The notes beneath the pieces were generated by a model that saw only the letters and a list, made by a program, of their open reading frames with translations, was not told the DNA's origin and ran no database searches. The position numbers and the translations under genes were made by a program. Below are positions 4,203-24,187 of a DNA stretch of 25,251 nucleotides, piece after piece. The DNA comes from a virus. The stretch is taken from positions 1 to 25,251 of the IMG/VR virus record IMGVR_UViG_3300048125_000011; one strand, 5' to 3'. Each line of letters opens with the position of its first letter. The stretch's first letter is position 1.

Positions 4203-4575
4203 TAACAAAGGTACTGATAAAAGAGCATTAAATGTTCCACCTGCTGCTAGAAATTATCAAGATAATACACAAGCTGTACGTAGAATGCCTGGTGTTGCTT
4301 ATGGTGAACAAAAAGCATTAACAGAACAACAACAAGCTGCACCTTTGTCAAAAGATACAACTCCACAAGCACAACCTAGTGCTGCAAGACCTATGCCACA
4401 AATGGATGTATTTGCACAAACACAAAGACCAAGTGAACCTGTTACATCAGGATTACCTTTTGGTCCTGGTGTTACACCAATGACTACACCAGAACAAGGC
4501 ATTCAAGATGTTAAAAACTTTATTTATGAAAGTTGGTTAGCAACTGGAGATGATAGTTTACTAGAGTTTTTGTAA
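4183..4575 (+). CDS. Pro/Gln-rich post-portal protein, actinophage-like
   Basis: A 130-residue protein of unknown function, mostly predicted disordered: rich in Gln, Pro, Thr and Ala, with RPSEPVTSGLPFGPG near the middle-to-end and a short helix at the C terminus. From memory, small proteins with an 'EPVT-GLPFGPG' core follow the portal gene in many actinobacteriophages, which fits an actinobacterial host; a search would be needed to confirm. I chose ATG 4183 over the in-frame ATGs at 4171 and 4177 because GAGG at 4173-4176 lies six bases upstream, whereas 4171 has no spaced ribosome site. Its stop overlaps the next gene's ATG (TAATG). Confidence 0.7.
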   Translation: MATRSSSNKGTDKRALNVPPAARNYQDNTQAVRRMPGVAYGEQKALTEQQQAAPLSKDTTPQAQPSAARPMPQMDVFAQTQRPSEPVTSGLPFGPGVTPMTTPEQGIQDVKNFIYESWLATGDDSLLEFL

Positions 4576-7500
4576 TGGTTTATAACGATTTCTCACAAGA
4601 CAAAGCTGAAAAATTAAGCAAAATAAATCAAACAAGTTTTAGTGTACCAGAAACAGTTATGGTACAAATGGCTAAAAATAATACTGATGATTCTTTTATA
4701 GAAAAAATGACTACTTTTTTTACTAGAAATAAAGTAGGTCCTTTTGAAAGATTAAAAAACTCTATTGCAACACAAACAGGTATAAATCCAGACACAGTAT
4801 CTTCTTTAAGAGAACTAGGATTAAAAACTACTTTTATGGGAGCACGATCTTTGTGGGAAGATACATTTCCTAGAGTAGGTAGAGCTATATCTTTAAAACA
4901 ACAAGGTGTATCTGATCCTTGGAAAAAAGCAGATGTTAGTCCTTTTGGCGTATGGAAAGCAGAAAGAGAAAAAGGAAATGTAATTGATTTTGGTTCAGCA
5001 ATTTTTGGTGACACAAATCCTGAAGATACACAAGAGTATAAAGATTTAATTGACAAAGGTTTTAGTACAGAACAAGCTAGAGCAAAAGTATTGAAAAACA
5101 AAGGTAAAAATATATGGACTTTAATAGAAGAAGAATCAAAAAAAGTAGATTTACCAGAAAGTACATCAAGAGCTTTAGCAGCTAGAGGCAAAGGAACACA
5201 AGCTACTTTTGGTAGAGTTATGTGGCAACCATTACATTTTATTGTAGGTCCAGAGGATGAAGCATATGATTTTTGGACAGGAACTGTTGATTTAGCTGCA
5301 AATATTCTTGACCCTACTTTTATAGTAGGTAAAGCTGTTAAAACTGTAAAAGCAGGTACAAAAATGTTAGCATTGTCAGATGATGCTGCAGCTAGTGTGG
5401 GTTTATTAAATGGTTTTGTAAGAAAGTCATTTAGTAAAAGAACAGTAGAGCAAGTAATAGATTCTAAAGATGGCGACAAAATTGCAGAGTTTTTATTAAA
5501 TAATAAAAACAATCCTGCCACAATACTAGAAAAATCTAATTTTAAATTTGTAAATAAATATATTATGCGTGACCAACAATTAGCAGATACAACAACAAAA
5601 TTTATGTTAGATTTGCAAACTATAGAAGAAACAGGAGATGCAGGATTAAAAGCTGTTAAAGAACTTTTAAAAACTAATACAAAGGTTGTTGTGTCTGCTA
5701 CAGAAGGTATGGTTCCTAAATTACAAAAAAATGGAAAACTTACACAGTATTTAGATACTTACTTTGGTCCACAATACAATACAAAATTAAGAGCTAGTAA
5801 TCCTGATCAGTTGCTTGTCAATTACAGTAAGTTTTTAAAACAAATAGACCCAACAGGTAAAATAGTAGATAGAAATAAAAGATTGTCTGATTTAATTGGT
5901 GAGCTAGATGCGTTAGGAACAAAAGACCCATTTTTAAAAGGAAACATAATTATTAATTCAGTTGTAAAAGATATGGGTTCATTAAGACAAGTTATAACAA
6001 AAAACTTTGAAGATACAGGTAAGTTAAATGACAGGTCAGAAAAATTAATTAAAAAGGTATTTACTAACTTAGGCAAATATATAGAAGAAGTACCAGACCA
6101 AGTAGGTAAAAACAAAAGAGTATATACACAATTAGGTAACTTACCTAATGAACTTAAAAGTCAATGGTCAAGAGAACTTAGTGATAGAGGTTGGTCATCA
6201 TCAGAAATAACAAAAGGTTTTGACACATTTGCTAATCAACCAATTATAGAATCTGTACTTACAAGAGATTTAACTTTGCCACAACCATCAGAGGTTATAA
6301 AACTTGTTAATAGTTTAGATAAAAGTATGAAAGGTAATTTTTTAAGAATGGCTGATATTGTTGGCGAAGTAGGCATAGACAATGCTTTAAATTTCTATGT
6401 TGGTAAAGTTTTTAAACCTATTGCATTGTTAAGACCTGCTTGGACAGTTCGTGTTATAGCAGAAGAACAATTAAGAGTTATAGCTGATGGTGTGTTAGGA
6501 ATTAGAGATAATTATTTAAGTCCTATGAATATATTAGGAAGAATGGGATTAATAGATGTAAGACCTTCTGCTGCTAGGTCTGGTTGGTTAAATAATGGTG
6601 TATTTGAAGCAGGTATAGGAGAAGCAGAATCAAGAGCATTTAATAACCTTACAGGTAGATTAAATAGACAAGGTATAGAGTTTGAAACAGTACAAAGAGT
6701 AGGTGGAGCAGGAACTGCAACACAAGCAAATACTTCTAAATGGAATCAAGGACAATTTAGAGTTATAAATAATTATTTAGATAGTAGGTTGACAAAAAAA
6801 ATTGCAGAAATAAAAATGTTAGGTCCTGACAATGCTGTATCACAACTAAAAAAATCTAAAGCTACTGAACAACTTATAGATGATTTGTTAGAAGAAGGTA
6901 ATGAATTAAGAGAAGCTATGTTAGCTATATCTACTAGCACAAACAAAGAAAACATATGGCAAGTATTAACTGACACTACTGACAGAAATTTAATTAAACA
7001 ATTTTTAAATACATTAGATGATGCAATAACAGCAGACTTATCTAAGAGTGGCGATCTTACAGCAGAGATGTGGGAGTTACTTGCTACTGGTAAATTTAAA
7101 AATGCTGATGGCACAGTTATAGACATAAAACAAATAACAAGAGGTTCTGCAACAAAAGCAGAAATAGAATTATTTAATGCTAATCAATTAGATTCAAAAA
7201 GAACTAGACAAATAGCAAAAACAAATGCAGATAATCAGAAAAAAGCTATTGATGAATACGTAGCTAAATTTGGTGATGGTTTAACTGAAGATGTAGGATT
7301 TAGAACAGTACCTATGGAACTTAAAAGTCCAGGCATAGGACAAAAAATAACCGAGCTAGGTATGGAGTGGTTAATGACTAGACCTACTAACAATATGTCA
7401 CGAATACCAGTATTTAAATCTACTTATTGGAACAAATCAGCAGAACTTATATCTATTAGTTCAGAAGCAGTAAAACAAAAAATATTAAAGGGTGCTAAAA

Positions 7501-9239
7501 AAGCTGGTATTAATGATAAACAAATAAAGAAATGGGATAAGTTATATAAATCTGCTGGTGATGAAGGAATAAATGATGCAGAACTTATAGAAATATTTGC
7601 TAAAGGTGCTGCTGTACAAAAAACAAAAGATTTATTGTACGACATAACTGAAAGCAGAAGATTCTGGGATGTTGCAAGGTGGATATTTCCTTTCGGTAAT
7701 GCGTATCAAGAAGTATTGACAACTTGGTTAGGATTGCTTGGTACAAACCCTGGTATTGTATCAAGAGGTTCAACTATATGGAATGGTGCAACACAACCAA
7801 CAGATACATTAGAAGATACAGGCAAAGGTTTCTTTTATGAAAATCCTACTAACGGATCAGTAGTATTTAATTATCCTGGTACAGGAATAGTACAAGATTG
7901 GATGTTTGGCGATTCAGAAAATCCTTTAGATGTTAATGTAAATTTACCTGTGTATGCACAAAGTTTAAATATAGCTGCGACAATACTTCCTGGTTTTGGT
8001 CCTGTCATAAGGCTACCTGCTGCATTTTACTTTAGAAATTACCCAGAAGATAGTTTTGCAAACGAAATTATTTTTGGTGACTTTCCTGCACCAAACATAA
8101 AAGAACCTGGAGATATAGCTAGAGCTGCTGGTGTTGTTCCTGCGTGGATGGATAAATTTTATAAAGTAGCTTTTAACAAAGAAGAAAACTCGCAAGGTAT
8201 ATTTGGTAATACTGTTATGGACACATACGAAGCATTATTATATGCAGGTCTTATTGATGACAGTAATGAAGATGGTTTTAAAAAAGGTATGAATTTAGCT
8301 GTAGATAAAGCAAAAGGATTATTTTATATTAGAGCAGTATCGCAGATGTTAGGTCCTTCAGGTGTTGCTACTCCAATATACGAAATAACACCAGGAAATT
8401 CTCGTATGTTTTTCTTGGAAACTCTAGCAGATGAATACAGAAGTATTAAAGCATCTAACAATTATGATGACACACAAGCATTAAAAGTATTTACTGATAG
8501 ATATGGATTTAATCCACTTGCTTTAACTGTATCTAAAACTATATCTATAGAAAAATTCCCAACTACAGAAGATAGTTATAAATGGTATCAGCAGAACAGA
8601 GAAGTCTATGAAGATTATCCTTATGTTGCTTGGTATTTAGACCCACCACCAGAATACGCAGAGTTTTCATTTACTGCATATAGAGAAGGATTGTTTGAGG
8701 GCAAAAGACAATATCGTACACCTGAACAATGGGCAATAGCTAAAAATAAATTACTTGGTGCTGTAGCATTAGATAAGTTTGAAAGAGATTTAGGTATTGT
8801 AGGAAACAGCACAGAAGCTGCTAGATATGTTAGAAACAGATACAAAAAAGAACTTATGGATAAGTATTGGGGTTATGGGCAACCTAACATTGTCGGATCA
8901 CCTAACAAACCAACTATAGATATGCAAATAACACAATTAGAAAAAATGGTAAATGACCCTAAATTACAAAACAATAAACAAGTTATTACAATAAATAAAT
9001 ATTTAAAGCAAAGACAAACTGTAATTGATTTATTAGTAGATCAGGGTGAATCAGAAACAGCTTGGAAACAATCTAATAAATATATTGCAGTAAGGCAAAT
9101 ATTAAGAAAATATGCTGATAATCTTGTAGATGAAAATCCAGATTTTGGTCCTATTTTTGACCAATTATTGGCAAAAGAGTTACAACCAGAATATGAAGAT
9201 GATTTGTTGCTACAATTAAATCAAGGTAATAATAGATAA
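4575..9239 (+). CDS. Giant internal virion / DNA-ejection protein (putative)
   Basis: At 1554 residues this is the largest gene in the window. By size, helix-rich composition and neighbours it is probably a virion-internal protein expelled with the DNA, comparable in role (not shown by homology) to the large T7-type ejection proteins. Visible landmarks: a charged N-terminal region; LRPAWTVRVIAEEQLR at about residues 619-634; an aromatic segment FWDVARWIFPFGNAYQEV at about 1030-1047; a hydrophobic stretch around 1125-1155 (SLNIAATILPGFGPVIRLP); and YPYVAWYLDPPPEY at about 1348-1361. The aromatic 'IFPFGNAY' region recalls the large polyvalent-type proteins of other phages, an impression only. 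No catalytic motif is evident: no Walker motif and no transglycosylase. It is coupled to the previous gene by TAATG and is followed by other putative internal proteins. A tape-measure role is less likely because no tail-tube genes are seen. Confidence 0.75.
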   Translation: MVYNDFSQDKAEKLSKINQTSFSVPETVMVQMAKNNTDDSFIEKMTTFFTRNKVGPFERLKNSIATQTGINPDTVSSLRELGLKTTFMGARSLWEDTFPRVGRAISLKQQGVSDPWKKADVSPFGVWKAEREKGNVIDFGSAIFGDTNPEDTQEYKDLIDKGFSTEQARAKVLKNKGKNIWTLIEEESKKVDLPESTSRALAARGKGTQATFGRVMWQPLHFIVGPEDEAYDFWTGTVDLAANILDPTFIVGKAVKTVKAGTKMLALSDDAAASVGLLNGFVRKSFSKRTVEQVIDSKDGDKIAEFLLNNKNNPATILEKSNFKFVNKYIMRDQQLADTTTKFMLDLQTIEETGDAGLKAVKELLKTNTKVVVSATEGMVPKLQKNGKLTQYLDTYFGPQYNTKLRASNPDQLLVNYSKFLKQIDPTGKIVDRNKRLSDLIGELDALGTKDPFLKGNIIINSVVKDMGSLRQVITKNFEDTGKLNDRSEKLIKKVFTNLGKYIEEVPDQVGKNKRVYTQLGNLPNELKSQWSRELSDRGWSSSEITKGFDTFANQPIIESVLTRDLTLPQPSEVIKLVNSLDKSMKGNFLRMADIVGEVGIDNALNFYVGKVFKPIALLRPAWTVRVIAEEQLRVIADGVLGIRDNYLSPMNILGRMGLIDVRPSAARSGWLNNGVFEAGIGEAESRAFNNLTGRLNRQGIEFETVQRVGGAGTATQANTSKWNQGQFRVINNYLDSRLTKKIAEIKMLGPDNAVSQLKKSKATEQLIDDLLEEGNELREAMLAISTSTNKENIWQVLTDTTDRNLIKQFLNTLDDAITADLSKSGDLTAEMWELLATGKFKNADGTVIDIKQITRGSATKAEIELFNANQLDSKRTRQIAKTNADNQKKAIDEYVAKFGDGLTEDVGFRTVPMELKSPGIGQKITELGMEWLMTRPTNNMSRIPVFKSTYWNKSAELISISSEAVKQKILKGAKKAGINDKQIKKWDKLYKSAGDEGINDAELIEIFAKGAAVQKTKDLLYDITESRRFWDVARWIFPFGNAYQEVLTTWLGLLGTNPGIVSRGSTIWNGATQPTDTLEDTGKGFFYENPTNGSVVFNYPGTGIVQDWMFGDSENPLDVNVNLPVYAQSLNIAATILPGFGPVIRLPAAFYFRNYPEDSFANEIIFGDFPAPNIKEPGDIARAAGVVPAWMDKFYKVAFNKEENSQGIFGNTVMDTYEALLYAGLIDDSNEDGFKKGMNLAVDKAKGLFYIRAVSQMLGPSGVATPIYEITPGNSRMFFLETLADEYRSIKASNNYDDTQALKVFTDRYGFNPLALTVSKTISIEKFPTTEDSYKWYQQNREVYEDYPYVAWYLDPPPEYAEFSFTAYREGLFEGKRQYRTPEQWAIAKNKLLGAVALDKFERDLGIVGNSTEAARYVRNRYKKELMDKYWGYGQPNIVGSPNKPTIDMQITQLEKMVNDPKLQNNKQVITINKYLKQRQTVIDLLVDQGESETAWKQSNKYIAVRQILRKYADNLVDENPDFGPIFDQLLAKELQPEYEDDLLLQLNQGNNR

Positions 9240-13338: not shown

Positions 13339-13341
13339 ACC

Positions 13342-13368
13342 TTGACATACTACATATAGTGGTATAAT
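13342..13368 (+). promoter_or_regulatory. Sigma70-type promoter upstream of scaffold/capsid genes
   Basis: A perfect -35 hexamer TTGACA (13342-13347) and perfect -10 hexamer TATAAT (13363-13368) are separated by 15 bases, one or two shorter than optimal. They lie directly after the last ejection-block gene, in the only sizeable intergenic gap, and point at the scaffold and capsid genes. Transcription would begin near 13374-13377. It probably gives extra transcription of the capsid genes by host RNA polymerase. The two perfect hexamers in a non-coding gap make chance unlikely. The short spacer could mean a weaker or regulated promoter. Confidence 0.7.
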
Positions 13369-13369
13369 T

Positions 13370-13495
13370 AAATTGTCGCATAGTGGTAGTCTGCGAATAT
13401 AAATTGACTCTGCACCTCCAGTTTATATCTGGCGTGTAAACTGTGTATTTCAATTCGCCTAGTATCTGAATAGCCGAAAGTGGCTGACAATTTTT
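13370..13495 (+). ncRNA. Candidate structured RNA or structured 5' leader
   Basis: About 125 non-coding bases contain several perfect complementary segments that fit one branched fold. P1: AAATTGTC 13370-13377 with GACAATTT 13486-13493. P2: TCGCA 13376-13380 with TGCGA 13392-13396, two bases shared with P1, so three pairs if both form. P3: AATTGA 13402-13407 with TCAATT 13450-13455. P3a, inside P3: CAGTTTA 13419-13425 with TAAACTG 13437-13443. P4: AGCC 13472-13475 with GGCT 13482-13485, next to P1. A run of five T follows P1. A competing hairpin (13397-13403 with 13422-13428) and a second partner for GACAA (TTGTC at 13514-13518) suggest alternative folds. It could be a stand-alone small RNA ending at the T run, or a regulatory leader for scaffold and capsid. 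Caveat: the predicted transcription start falls inside the 5' strand of P1. No known RNA family is recognised. Confidence 0.45.
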
Positions 13496-13580
13496 GTTAT
13501 TCTGTATTATTATTTGTCGCCTATCACATCATTATCCCAAGGATGGTGTAGCTAGTAGAAAACTTGGAGTAGGAGAAATA

Positions 13581-14039
13581 ATGGAAAACGAAGTAGAAAA
13601 TACAGTAGAGGATATGCAAGAAGATAACAATGCGATTAAGCAAATGCGTGAACGTATTAAAGAGCTTGAATCAGTAGAGAAAGAATTTAAGTCTGTAAAG
13701 ATGGCTAACGCTATCCAAGATGCAGGTTTTGATCCTCAATCTGGTGAAGGTAAAGCACTTAAAGACTTGTATAAAGGTGAGTTAGAAGCAAATGCTATAA
13801 AAGAGTTTGCATCTAATTATGGTTGGGGTAATGCTCCAGCTGAACCAACTCAAGAAGAACTACAAAGACAAAGAGTTGTTTCTGGTCAAGATAGTTTAGA
13901 TACTGTTATAGAAGCATCAGTTCCTGTAGAACCTGTAGGTCTTGATGACCAAATTGCACAAGCACAACAAGATGGTGATTGGCAAACAAGTTCTAATCTC
14001 AAAGCAGATAAATTAAGATCACTAACTCAAAAAAAGTAA
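13581..14039 (+). CDS. Putative scaffolding / capsid assembly protein
   Basis: The 152-residue protein is acidic at its start, then a probable coiled coil (about residues 19-45, IKQMRERIKELESVEKEFKS), and ends in a basic stretch (LKADKLRSLTQKK). A small, acidic, helical protein directly before the major capsid gene is the usual position and character of a scaffold, whose C terminus binds the capsid shell. Function is therefore inferred from context and composition, not homology. ATG 13581 was chosen because AGGAGA (13571-13576) sits just upstream. A longer reading from a TTG at 13494 would translate the structured leader and is rejected. The major capsid gene follows after 12 bases. Confidence 0.7.
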   Translation: MENEVENTVEDMQEDNNAIKQMRERIKELESVEKEFKSVKMANAIQDAGFDPQSGEGKALKDLYKGELEANAIKEFASNYGWGNAPAEPTQEELQRQRVVSGQDSLDTVIEASVPVEPVGLDDQIAQAQQDGDWQTSSNLKADKLRSLTQKK

Positions 14040-14051
14040 AGGAGATTTAAA

Positions 14052-14990
14052 ATGGGTGCAGTATCAGGATTGGGAGATTCATACGATCTTCCTAATTACG
14101 TGGGTGAGTTATTTAACATAACACCTAACGATACACCTTTCCTTTCTGCTATTGGTGGAATGACTGGAGGTAAATCAGTTACCTCTAAACAGTTCACCTG
14201 GCAAACAGTTGACAATGCAACAGCAGCTCAAACAGTAGTAGCTGAAGGTGCAGATGCAACTTTCGCAGAGAGAAGCAGATCTGAAGTAACTAACGTTACT
14301 CAAATTATGCAATATGGTGTACACGTTTCCTACACAAAACAAGCAGCTGTAGGCAACCTTAACGGAGAATCTATTATAGGAAATCAGCCAGTTCAAGATG
14401 AATTGTCTTTCCAACTAGATATGGCTATGAAAAGAGCAGCCAGAGACATTGAGTTCTCTTTCCTAAGAGGTTCATATGTTGCTGACACAAACGTAGGAAC
14501 AGCAAGAAAAACAAGAGGAATGTTATCAGCTATCGCTACTAACGAAGTAGCAGGTGGTAACGCAGCTCTTGATCAAGCAAAAGTAAATGCTTTGATGAAA
14601 GCTATGGCAGATTCAGGAGCTCCATTCGAGCAACCTGTAATTATGGCTAACGCTTTCCAAAAGCAAAAACTATCTTCAATCTATTCAAGTGCTTTAGCAC
14701 TTGCACCAAGAGATAGAAACTATGGTGGTGTTAATATCAACACTATAGAAACTGACTTTGGTGAAGTAGGTATTGTCTATAGCAGACACTTACCAGCTGA
14801 AGATTTAATTTGCGTTGACCTTGCTTATTGTAAGCCTGTATTCTTGGACATTCCTGGAAAAGGACACTTTTTCGCAGAACCACTTGCACAAACTGGTTCA
14901 GCTTATAAGTTCCAAATCTATGGAGAGGTCGGATTAGAATATGGTCCAGAGCAATTCCACGGCAAAATTACATCACTATCCACTTCCTAA
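14052..14990 (+). CDS. Major capsid protein, SU10/DUF5309-like
   Basis: The 312-residue protein probably forms the icosahedral shell with an HK97 fold. The N-terminal motif ELFNITPNDTPFLSAIGG (residues 19-36), followed by KQFTWQTV (about 47-54), is the pattern I associate with the SU10-type major capsid family (DUF5309). Length and position after a scaffold-like gene agree. It has the clearest translation signal in the region, AAAGGAG at 14038-14044 with a seven-base spacer. By hand count 12 of its 15 Phe codons are TTC, whereas none of the nine in the next gene are, and 11 of 16 Asn codons are AAC. This codon shift fits very high expression. A strong hairpin lies just downstream. Confidence 0.9.
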   Translation: MGAVSGLGDSYDLPNYVGELFNITPNDTPFLSAIGGMTGGKSVTSKQFTWQTVDNATAAQTVVAEGADATFAERSRSEVTNVTQIMQYGVHVSYTKQAAVGNLNGESIIGNQPVQDELSFQLDMAMKRAARDIEFSFLRGSYVADTNVGTARKTRGMLSAIATNEVAGGNAALDQAKVNALMKAMADSGAPFEQPVIMANAFQKQKLSSIYSSALALAPRDRNYGGVNINTIETDFGEVGIVYSRHLPAEDLICVDLAYCKPVFLDIPGKGHFFAEPLAQTGSAYKFQIYGEVGLEYGPEQFHGKITSLSTS

Positions 14991-23842: not shown

Positions 23843-23854
23843 TAAAAAAACCTA

Positions 23855-23863
23855 TGATACAAT
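23855..23863 (+). promoter_or_regulatory. Possible extended -10 promoter before the lysis genes
   Basis: TGATACAAT lies in the 27-base gap between the tail-assembly gene and the first small membrane-protein gene. TACAAT preceded by TGN is an extended -10 pattern, which needs no strong -35. No good -35 hexamer is seen at 16-18 bases upstream. The site is only seven bases before the next ATG, so transcripts would be nearly leaderless. Low confidence. Confidence 0.2.
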
Positions 23864-23869
23864 CGTATT

Positions 23870-24019
23870 ATGGATTATCTCGTTGGTTTTATTTTTGGAT
23901 TTATTGTAAAAGAAATATACAAATTATTACAGTATTTAAGCACATCTGAAACACTTATAATAGACCACGATTGGGATGAAGAATGGGATTGGATTACCAG
24001 ACCAGAGGACCTACCATAA
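23870..24019 (+). CDS. Small single-span membrane protein (possible lysis gene)
   Basis: A 49-residue ORF, MDYLVGFIFGFIVKEIYKLL at its start and DHDWDEEWDWITRPEDLP at its end. Residues 3-20 are a probable membrane helix; the rest is acidic and Trp-rich. It is followed immediately by the holin-like gene (its TAA touches the next ATG). Very small membrane proteins beside a holin often belong to the lysis group, but no family is recognised. The start may be leaderless or weakly served: no Shine-Dalgarno is visible. Confidence 0.5.
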   Translation: MDYLVGFIFGFIVKEIYKLLQYLSTSETLIIDHDWDEEWDWITRPEDLP

Positions 24020-24187
24020 ATGACACACAACAATGGCTATACTCAAAAAGAATTACTCAATATGGTCATTGAAAGACTAGATAGATTAGAAGAAAAGCTA
24101 GATGCAAAGCTAGATAAGGCAGAGTTTTATAAAGTATTAACATTACTTGTAGCACTTGGTGGAGTAGTTGCAGCGATTGTAATGTAA
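24020..24187 (+). CDS. Holin-like protein (XhlA-type layout)
   Basis: The 55-residue protein has a soluble coiled-coil-like N half (about residues 15-33, MVIERLDRLEEKLDAKLDK) and one membrane helix at its C terminus (about 38-55, KVLTLLVALGGVVAAIVM). This layout is that of XhlA-type phage hemolysin/holin helper proteins, which oligomerise in the membrane to allow endolysin action. The sequence is too short for a certain call. It starts one base after the previous stop and ends in TAATG with the next gene, so the three genes are probably coupled. An endolysin is not seen in the window and may lie beyond its right edge. Confidence 0.6.
   Translation: MTHNNGYTQKELLNMVIERLDRLEEKLDAKLDKAEFYKVLTLLVALGGVVAAIVM

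Follow-up and report, generated by a model that had tools for sequence, protein, structure and literature searches.

A candidate structured RNA of four consecutive pseudoknots before the scaffold and capsid genes of a marine phage clade

Introduction

Does the non-coding gap that precedes the putative scaffold and capsid genes in the virus record IMGVR_UViG_3300048125_000011 (IMG/VR) encode a structured RNA, and on which genes would such an RNA act? The whole stretch of DNA that was analysed, 25,251 nucleotides, is called the window below, and the gap occupies its positions 13339-13580. An earlier note, prepared from the letters alone, proposed that positions 13370-13495, downstream of a promoter, form an undescribed structured RNA, and called the gap the longest non-coding stretch, which is a fair description, as the longer gap at 23843-24186 contains two small open reading frames (ORFs). 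The alignment of related leaders and their covariation bear out an undescribed RNA before the scaffold and capsid genes, and strongly support a structure of four consecutive H-type pseudoknots (PK1-PK4). As delimited by the alignment of 62 leaders, the element spans about 190 bases, from around 13376 to around 13567, and thus runs on well beyond the 3' limit originally proposed. Its structure, conservation, single fixed location and placement relative to the promoter box and the ribosome site were read from the sequences.

Distribution of the Leader

The search with the capsid protein provided 80 viral loci, and a BLAST comparison of the gap with 99 loci gave usable matches in 89; 62 distinct leaders, including that of the window, were analysed. 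A pattern describing the core was present in 112 IMG/VR contigs, with one copy each, and a second pattern, derived from PK4, matched almost exclusively those same contigs. The scaffold gene was directly next in 164 of 182 pattern loci, and the other 18 loci end no more than 160 nt from the pattern start. A single copy per record was also observed in all 17 long records. All capsid relatives of at least 74% identity with enough upstream sequence carried the element, and locus L074 (43% capsid identity) was devoid of it. The capsid-alignment search revealed no relatives between the 74% and 43% identity levels, and this lack of intermediates between the carriers and L074 indicates that the element is a marker of a single, discrete clade of marine phages. 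No copy turned up among 84,980 genomes of bacteria and archaea, one per species. Homologous leaders were considered and rejected for the distant relatives with 43%–48% capsid identity, Mycobacterium phage Mendokysei, Propionibacterium phage B22 and Dulem virus 32, in which the gaps were, by eye, shorter or unrelated in sequence.

Rfam 15 at the gathering threshold gave no family match in the window or in 11 related loci, and permissive covariance-model scans of three leaders yielded chance-level matches at most, in agreement with the earlier statement that no known RNA family is recognised. No earlier description of such an element was found in the literature searched, in which few subscription journals were represented.

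The ends of contigs were distributed unevenly around the element core: among the 112 contigs, 20 ended within 200 nt downstream of it and one within 200 nt upstream. The downstream ends probably represent assembly breaks at the conserved capsid-side sequence.

Structure of the Leader

The proposed parts of the structure, all on the + strand of the window, are as follows.

13376-13380 with 13392-13396, +, PK1 stem 1 (three pairs at E<0.05)
13383-13386 and 13388-13391 with 13406-13413, +, PK1 stem 2 (95% of cells paired)
13416-13419, +, linker CUCC between PK1 and PK2, the complement of GGAG in the scaffold Shine-Dalgarno sequence; possible sequestering helix
13419-13425 with 13437-13443, +, PK2 stem 1 (fully paired in 61 of 62 leaders)
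13431-13434 with 13456-13459, +, PK2 stem 2 (paired in 62 of 62; nine different 5' strands)
13468-13472 with 13498-13502, +, PK3 stem 1 (paired in 62 of 62)
13472-13485, +, alternative or inserted hairpin AGCC/GGCU
13482-13484 and 13486-13490 with 13514-13521, +, PK3 stem 2, nearly invariant core (lower 5 bp formed in all 62 leaders)
13522-13525, +, UAUC linker between PK3 and PK4 (100% conserved)
13526-13532 with 13543-13549, +, PK4 stem 1 (7/7 pairs in all 62 leaders)
13537-13541 with 13563-13567, +, PK4 stem 2 (paired in 62 of 62)

The four-pseudoknot structure was first read by eye and was evaluated on a sequence-only alignment (A1) of the 62 leaders. On this alignment 94.5% of cells were paired, in comparison to 37%–46% with the partner strands slid, and two-sided changes were found at 20 of 50 pairs, the number of cells with such a change being 159 versus 44 in column shuffles. 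Many of the pairs are G-U, in one strand sense. In a tree-based, R-scape-like test, which reassigned the substitutions to random columns while keeping the tree, 12 of 49 pairs reached E<0.05; they belong to six of the eight helices (PK1 stem 1, both stems of PK2, PK3 stem 1 and both stems of PK4) and represent all four pseudoknots. The number of compensatory two-sided events on the tree was 62, versus 0–2 with slid partners, and when column pairs were scored blind to the structure, the top three overall were helix pairs.

The helices differ in how far they have been challenged by variation. PK1 stem 1 occurs as TCGCA/TGCGA, TCGGA/TCCGA, ACGCA/TGCGT and TAGCC/GGCTN; PK2 stem 1 holds the top-scoring column pair of the alignment, and all four pairs of PK2 stem 2 were significant at E<0.05. 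The variants of PK3 stem 1 include GAATA/TATTC, GTACA/TGTAC, GAACA/TGTTC and CAACA/TGTTG, and those of PK4 stem 2 are CCAAG/CUUGG, CCCAG/CUGGG and CACAG/CUGUG. In a wider set, all 89 distinct leaders kept PK4 stem 1 (7/7) and stem 2 (5/5). The least tested helices are PK1 stem 2, with two-sided changes at two pairs and none individually significant, and PK3 stem 2, which barely varies: its strands are 98%–99% conserved, and a CAA/TTG to CTA/TAG swap was found in four rows. Overall, the paired changes in these sequences back all eight helices, PK1 stem 2 and PK3 stem 2 only weakly. The CUCC/GGAG helix was predicted by RNAalifold, without clear covariation, and CUCC or UUCC is kept in the linker of 56 of 62 leaders.

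Each leader was additionally parsed into its strands. Since such a parse leans towards the structure, swap controls were added, in which 3' strands were exchanged between leaders with different 5' strands. After the exchange PK4 stem 2 was paired in none of 2242 combinations, PK1 stem 1 in 1%, PK3 stem 1 in 9% and PK2 stem 2 in 12%, while PK2 stem 1 and PK4 stem 1 remained paired in 42%–46%, because many of their changes are G-U tolerant. By the parse, PK1 stem 1 was fully paired in 50 of 62 leaders, and the remainder were mostly of the AGCC/GGCU type, imperfectly placed by the parser.

Folding energies gave a much weaker signal. The segment 13370-13498 folded modestly better than its shuffled copies (z -1.90, with 5 of 200 as good), but the whole leader did not stand out (z -0.34), and pseudoknot-chain scores of single sequences had a mean z of 1.44. 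Nested or single-sequence folding energy was therefore rejected as proof of the structure; with thermodynamics indecisive, it is the comparative evidence that decides.

The same evidence changes the shape proposed in the earlier note, a branched fold closed by helix P1. All four of its main helices, P1 (13370-13377/13486-13493), P3 (13393-13398/13453-13458), P3a (13419-13425/13437-13443) and P4 (13472-13475/13482-13485), are indeed perfect complements in the window. However, P1 and P3 are not conserved across the relatives. P1 was paired in 67% of cells and showed no two-sided change; among 61 leaders, its G-C pair was broken in 50, and two of its A-T pairs in 30 and 43, respectively. P3 was paired in 79% of cells with at most one two-sided pair, and one of its pairs is broken in 29 leaders. 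P3a is a real helix, with 97% of cells paired and four two-sided pairs, but as stem 1 of PK2 rather than as a part of the branched fold. P4 is kept as well (99.6% paired), with one-sided G-U changes only, and may be an alternative hairpin.

PK1 exists as two interchangeable types, which differ between L002 (3313-3530) and L003 (3317-3530), and despite these different types PK2-PK4 and the capsid are nearly identical in the two. This difference in PK1 type suggests recombination inside the leader.

At the sequence level, conservation of the leader exceeded that of fourfold-degenerate capsid-gene sites in 45 of 54 comparisons, and this gap grows with distance (0.75 versus 0.55 at 70%–78% capsid identity). 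The most conserved block (98%–100%) comprises GGCUGRCWA, UWGUCGCS and UAUC in PK3 and the adjacent linker. In comparison to the window, L002 and L003 have capsids 99% identical and leaders 88% and 76% identical, respectively, with the same PK3 core strands.

Promoter and Ribosome Site

The leader is flanked by the following elements.

13342-13347, +, -35 hexamer TTGACA (spacer of 15 to TATAAT, the same in 28 of the 48 leaders with TATAAT)
13348-13364, +, imperfect inverted repeat TACTAC-ATATA-GTGGTA, which occupies the spacer and extends into the -10 hexamer; possible operator
13360-13368, +, extended -10 element TGG-TATAAT (TATAAT itself at 13363-13368)
13375-13376, +, predicted transcription start, seventh to eighth base past the -10 box
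13571-13575, +, Shine-Dalgarno sequence AGGAG of the scaffold gene, conserved in most relatives
13581-14039, +, putative scaffold gene with an ATG start conserved in relatives
14052-14990, +, major capsid protein (PF17236 SU10_MCP, 4.6e-80; phrog_1328)

Both promoter hexamers are perfect, as stated in the earlier note, but the spacer of 15 lies outside the 16–18 accepted by the promoter scan. TATAAT is present in 48 of 62 leaders and preceded by TGn in 33. The distance from this box to PK1 stem 1 is exactly 7 bases in 44 of 62 leaders and 6 in another 4, and this spacing indicates that the transcript probably begins with PK1, so that the 5' end of the mRNA would be a stem. The concern that the expected start would cut into P1 falls away, as P1 is unconserved and the predicted start coincides with the first base pair of PK1. 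Additionally, 15 of the leaders have, around 25 bases before PK1, a strong hairpin that resembles a terminator (AAAATAGTGGGT/ACCCACTATTTT type) and belongs to the upstream unit, which supports a separate transcription unit for the leader. An inverted repeat similar to that in the promoter was found, with a loose pattern, in 37 of 62 leaders, and a late-gene regulator may use the repeat as an operator. In relative L011 the repeat is perfect (TACCAC-ATATA-GTGGTA).

At the other end, PK4 is followed by the scaffold start codon at a distance of 11–18 bases in 62 of 62 leaders. The Shine-Dalgarno sequence lies outside PK4, in the window 3 bases from its end. A TTG at 13494 was rejected as the scaffold start in favour of the conserved ATG at 13581. 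As in phage Mendokysei, this gene stands ahead of that for the capsid, and the scaffold function is proposed on this basis.

Comparison with Known Pseudoknots

The tmRNA contains several consecutive pseudoknots (PMC1168896). The leader resembles this array but is devoid of a tRNA-like domain and of a tag frame, and both ARAGORN, applied to the window and the relatives, and Rfam were negative for tRNA and tmRNA. Tandem pseudoknots also form STAXI (RF01728), with two to three units sometimes located near phage c4 RNAs (PMC2864571). STAXI is built of one repeated unit and occurs in Enterobacteriales near DNA-handling genes, whereas here four different pseudoknots stand before capsid genes; no pseudoknot-length repeats were found within the leader and cmscan gave no STAXI match. 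GOLLD and ROOL are pseudoknot-rich phage RNAs too (PMC12286853), but large, much longer than the leader and often near tRNA islands, and neither matched here.

Few descriptions of phage leader pseudoknots exist. The leader of gene 32 in T4 and RB69 is likewise a phage mRNA leader that acts in cis and has an H-type pseudoknot 5' of the ribosome site; the T4 pseudoknot is bound by gp32, which represses its own mRNA, and a 2010 review regarded it as possibly the sole viral pseudoknot in translational autoregulation (PMC3014915). It differs in being a single pseudoknot, 67 nt upstream, before a gene for a ssDNA-binding protein, and no shared sequence is apparent; here four H-type pseudoknots with covariation were found. 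Pseudoknots of rpsO, tmRNA and tisB bind ribosomal protein S1, and those of rpsO and tisB, also located in mRNA leaders, act by way of S1 and the 30S platform (PMC7708055). These are single pseudoknots of E. coli genes, and S1 is only a candidate binder of the leader described here. Tandem pseudoknots (STAXI, tmRNA) and the single leader pseudoknot (T4-type phages) are of an already known kind; four different pseudoknots chained before capsid genes are new as far as the literature was searched.

Possible Function

The option of a leader controlling scaffold and capsid, raised in the earlier note, is supported. We consider it likely, judging from sequence, that the element is a cis-acting leader of the scaffold-capsid mRNA that would combine protection of the 5' end with control of translation, the PK3 core being occupied by a protein. 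Transcription would start about the base before PK1 and give an mRNA with a folded 5' end; the leader of around 190 bases, folded as four consecutive H-type pseudoknots, would act in cis on the scaffold-capsid operon, keep nucleases off the 5' end and control or assist 30S loading at the scaffold start. The expected outcome would be scaffold and capsid in large, balanced amounts, late in infection. Action in cis is proposed because the place is fixed, no terminator is present and the spacing to the ribosome site is tight. A folded mRNA 5' end slows 5'-end-dependent decay. The PK3 core and the UAUC linker would probably be bound by ribosomal protein S1 or by a phage protein such as the scaffold, the latter being a candidate because the scaffolding protein of P22 restrains its own synthesis post-transcriptionally. 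The transcription start, 5' protection, translational effect and binding partner are what we infer from the arrangement of the leader.

The position of the leader alone fits stabilisation and translational control alike. A pure stabiliser and ribosome loader, which would sense nothing, block decay from the 5' end, recruit S1 and 30S and so raise output, is a plausible alternative, if short of probable: the folded end lies at the predicted start, two PK1 types are interchangeable as if shape alone mattered, and S1 binds diverse pseudoknots (PMC7708055). Nevertheless, it leaves the near-invariant GGCUGACAA/UUGUCGCC/UAUC block unexplained.

Another alternative is an autoregulatory operator, in which scaffold or capsid protein that is not yet assembled would attach to the PK3 core and block translation until assembly consumes it. 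It is a specific form of the cis-acting leader proposed above, and we regard it as a tentative one. The leader occurs solely at one site, immediately ahead of scaffold and capsid, its PK3 core varies far less than the helices require, and in addition to the P22 case, gp32 is known to regulate itself via a leader pseudoknot (PMC3014915). On the other hand, the leaders of L002 and L003 have diverged from that of the window much further than their capsids, albeit with unchanged PK3 core strands. Equally tentative is the wider idea that the leader senses the state of head assembly via a protein at the invariant PK3 core and sets scaffold and capsid translation, which would constitute a new regulatory class.

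A riboswitch-like leader sensing a small molecule is unlikely. Compact pseudoknots adjoining a ribosome site, the conserved core and the possible anti-Shine-Dalgarno CUCC would suit it, but the gene context is a single one, no Rfam riboswitch matched and no metabolic gene lies downstream. Still less do we favour a stand-alone small RNA or an RNA of the packaging machine, also suggested earlier. Its own promoter and extensive structure would be in keeping with such an RNA, but the element is never found away from the scaffold gene, the short distance to the scaffold start codon is fixed in all leaders, and a conserved terminator is lacking: the window has one terminator-like site, and its TTTTT run, taken for a terminator in the earlier note, reads TTCTA, TTCTC or TTCAA in most relatives. 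Least probable is a conserved DNA element (an operator, packaging or replication site) with complementarity reflecting protein sites, since the pairs interlock, G-U pairs are numerous in one strand sense, and promoter and ribosome site stand in a fixed relation to the element, despite the imperfect inverted repeat in the promoter and the single-stranded DNA option raised by the STAXI authors for tandem pseudoknots (PMC2864571).

A strongly covarying chain of four pseudoknots thus heads the capsid operon in a whole marine phage clade. With its dozens of natural variants, the leader offers a test system for RNA structure setting the supply of scaffold and capsid.

The Phage and Its Other Genes

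Three proteins are closest to those of actinobacteriophages, with 48% identity in the capsid, 24%–28% in the terminase and 23%–28% in a tail protein, which is annotated as tail tube in one relative. The G+C content is 31%–38%. WhiB, sought as a marker of an actinobacterial host, was found in none of 17 records; a marine actinobacterial host is possible, as a guess. Between the terminase and capsid genes, positions 4575-9239 encode a protein of 1554 aa with no Pfam or PHROG match. In the gap at 23843-24186, an ORF of 49 aa (23870-24019) is followed by one of 55 aa (24020-24187), whose charged start and single C-terminal hydrophobic stretch are reminiscent of small holin-like proteins.
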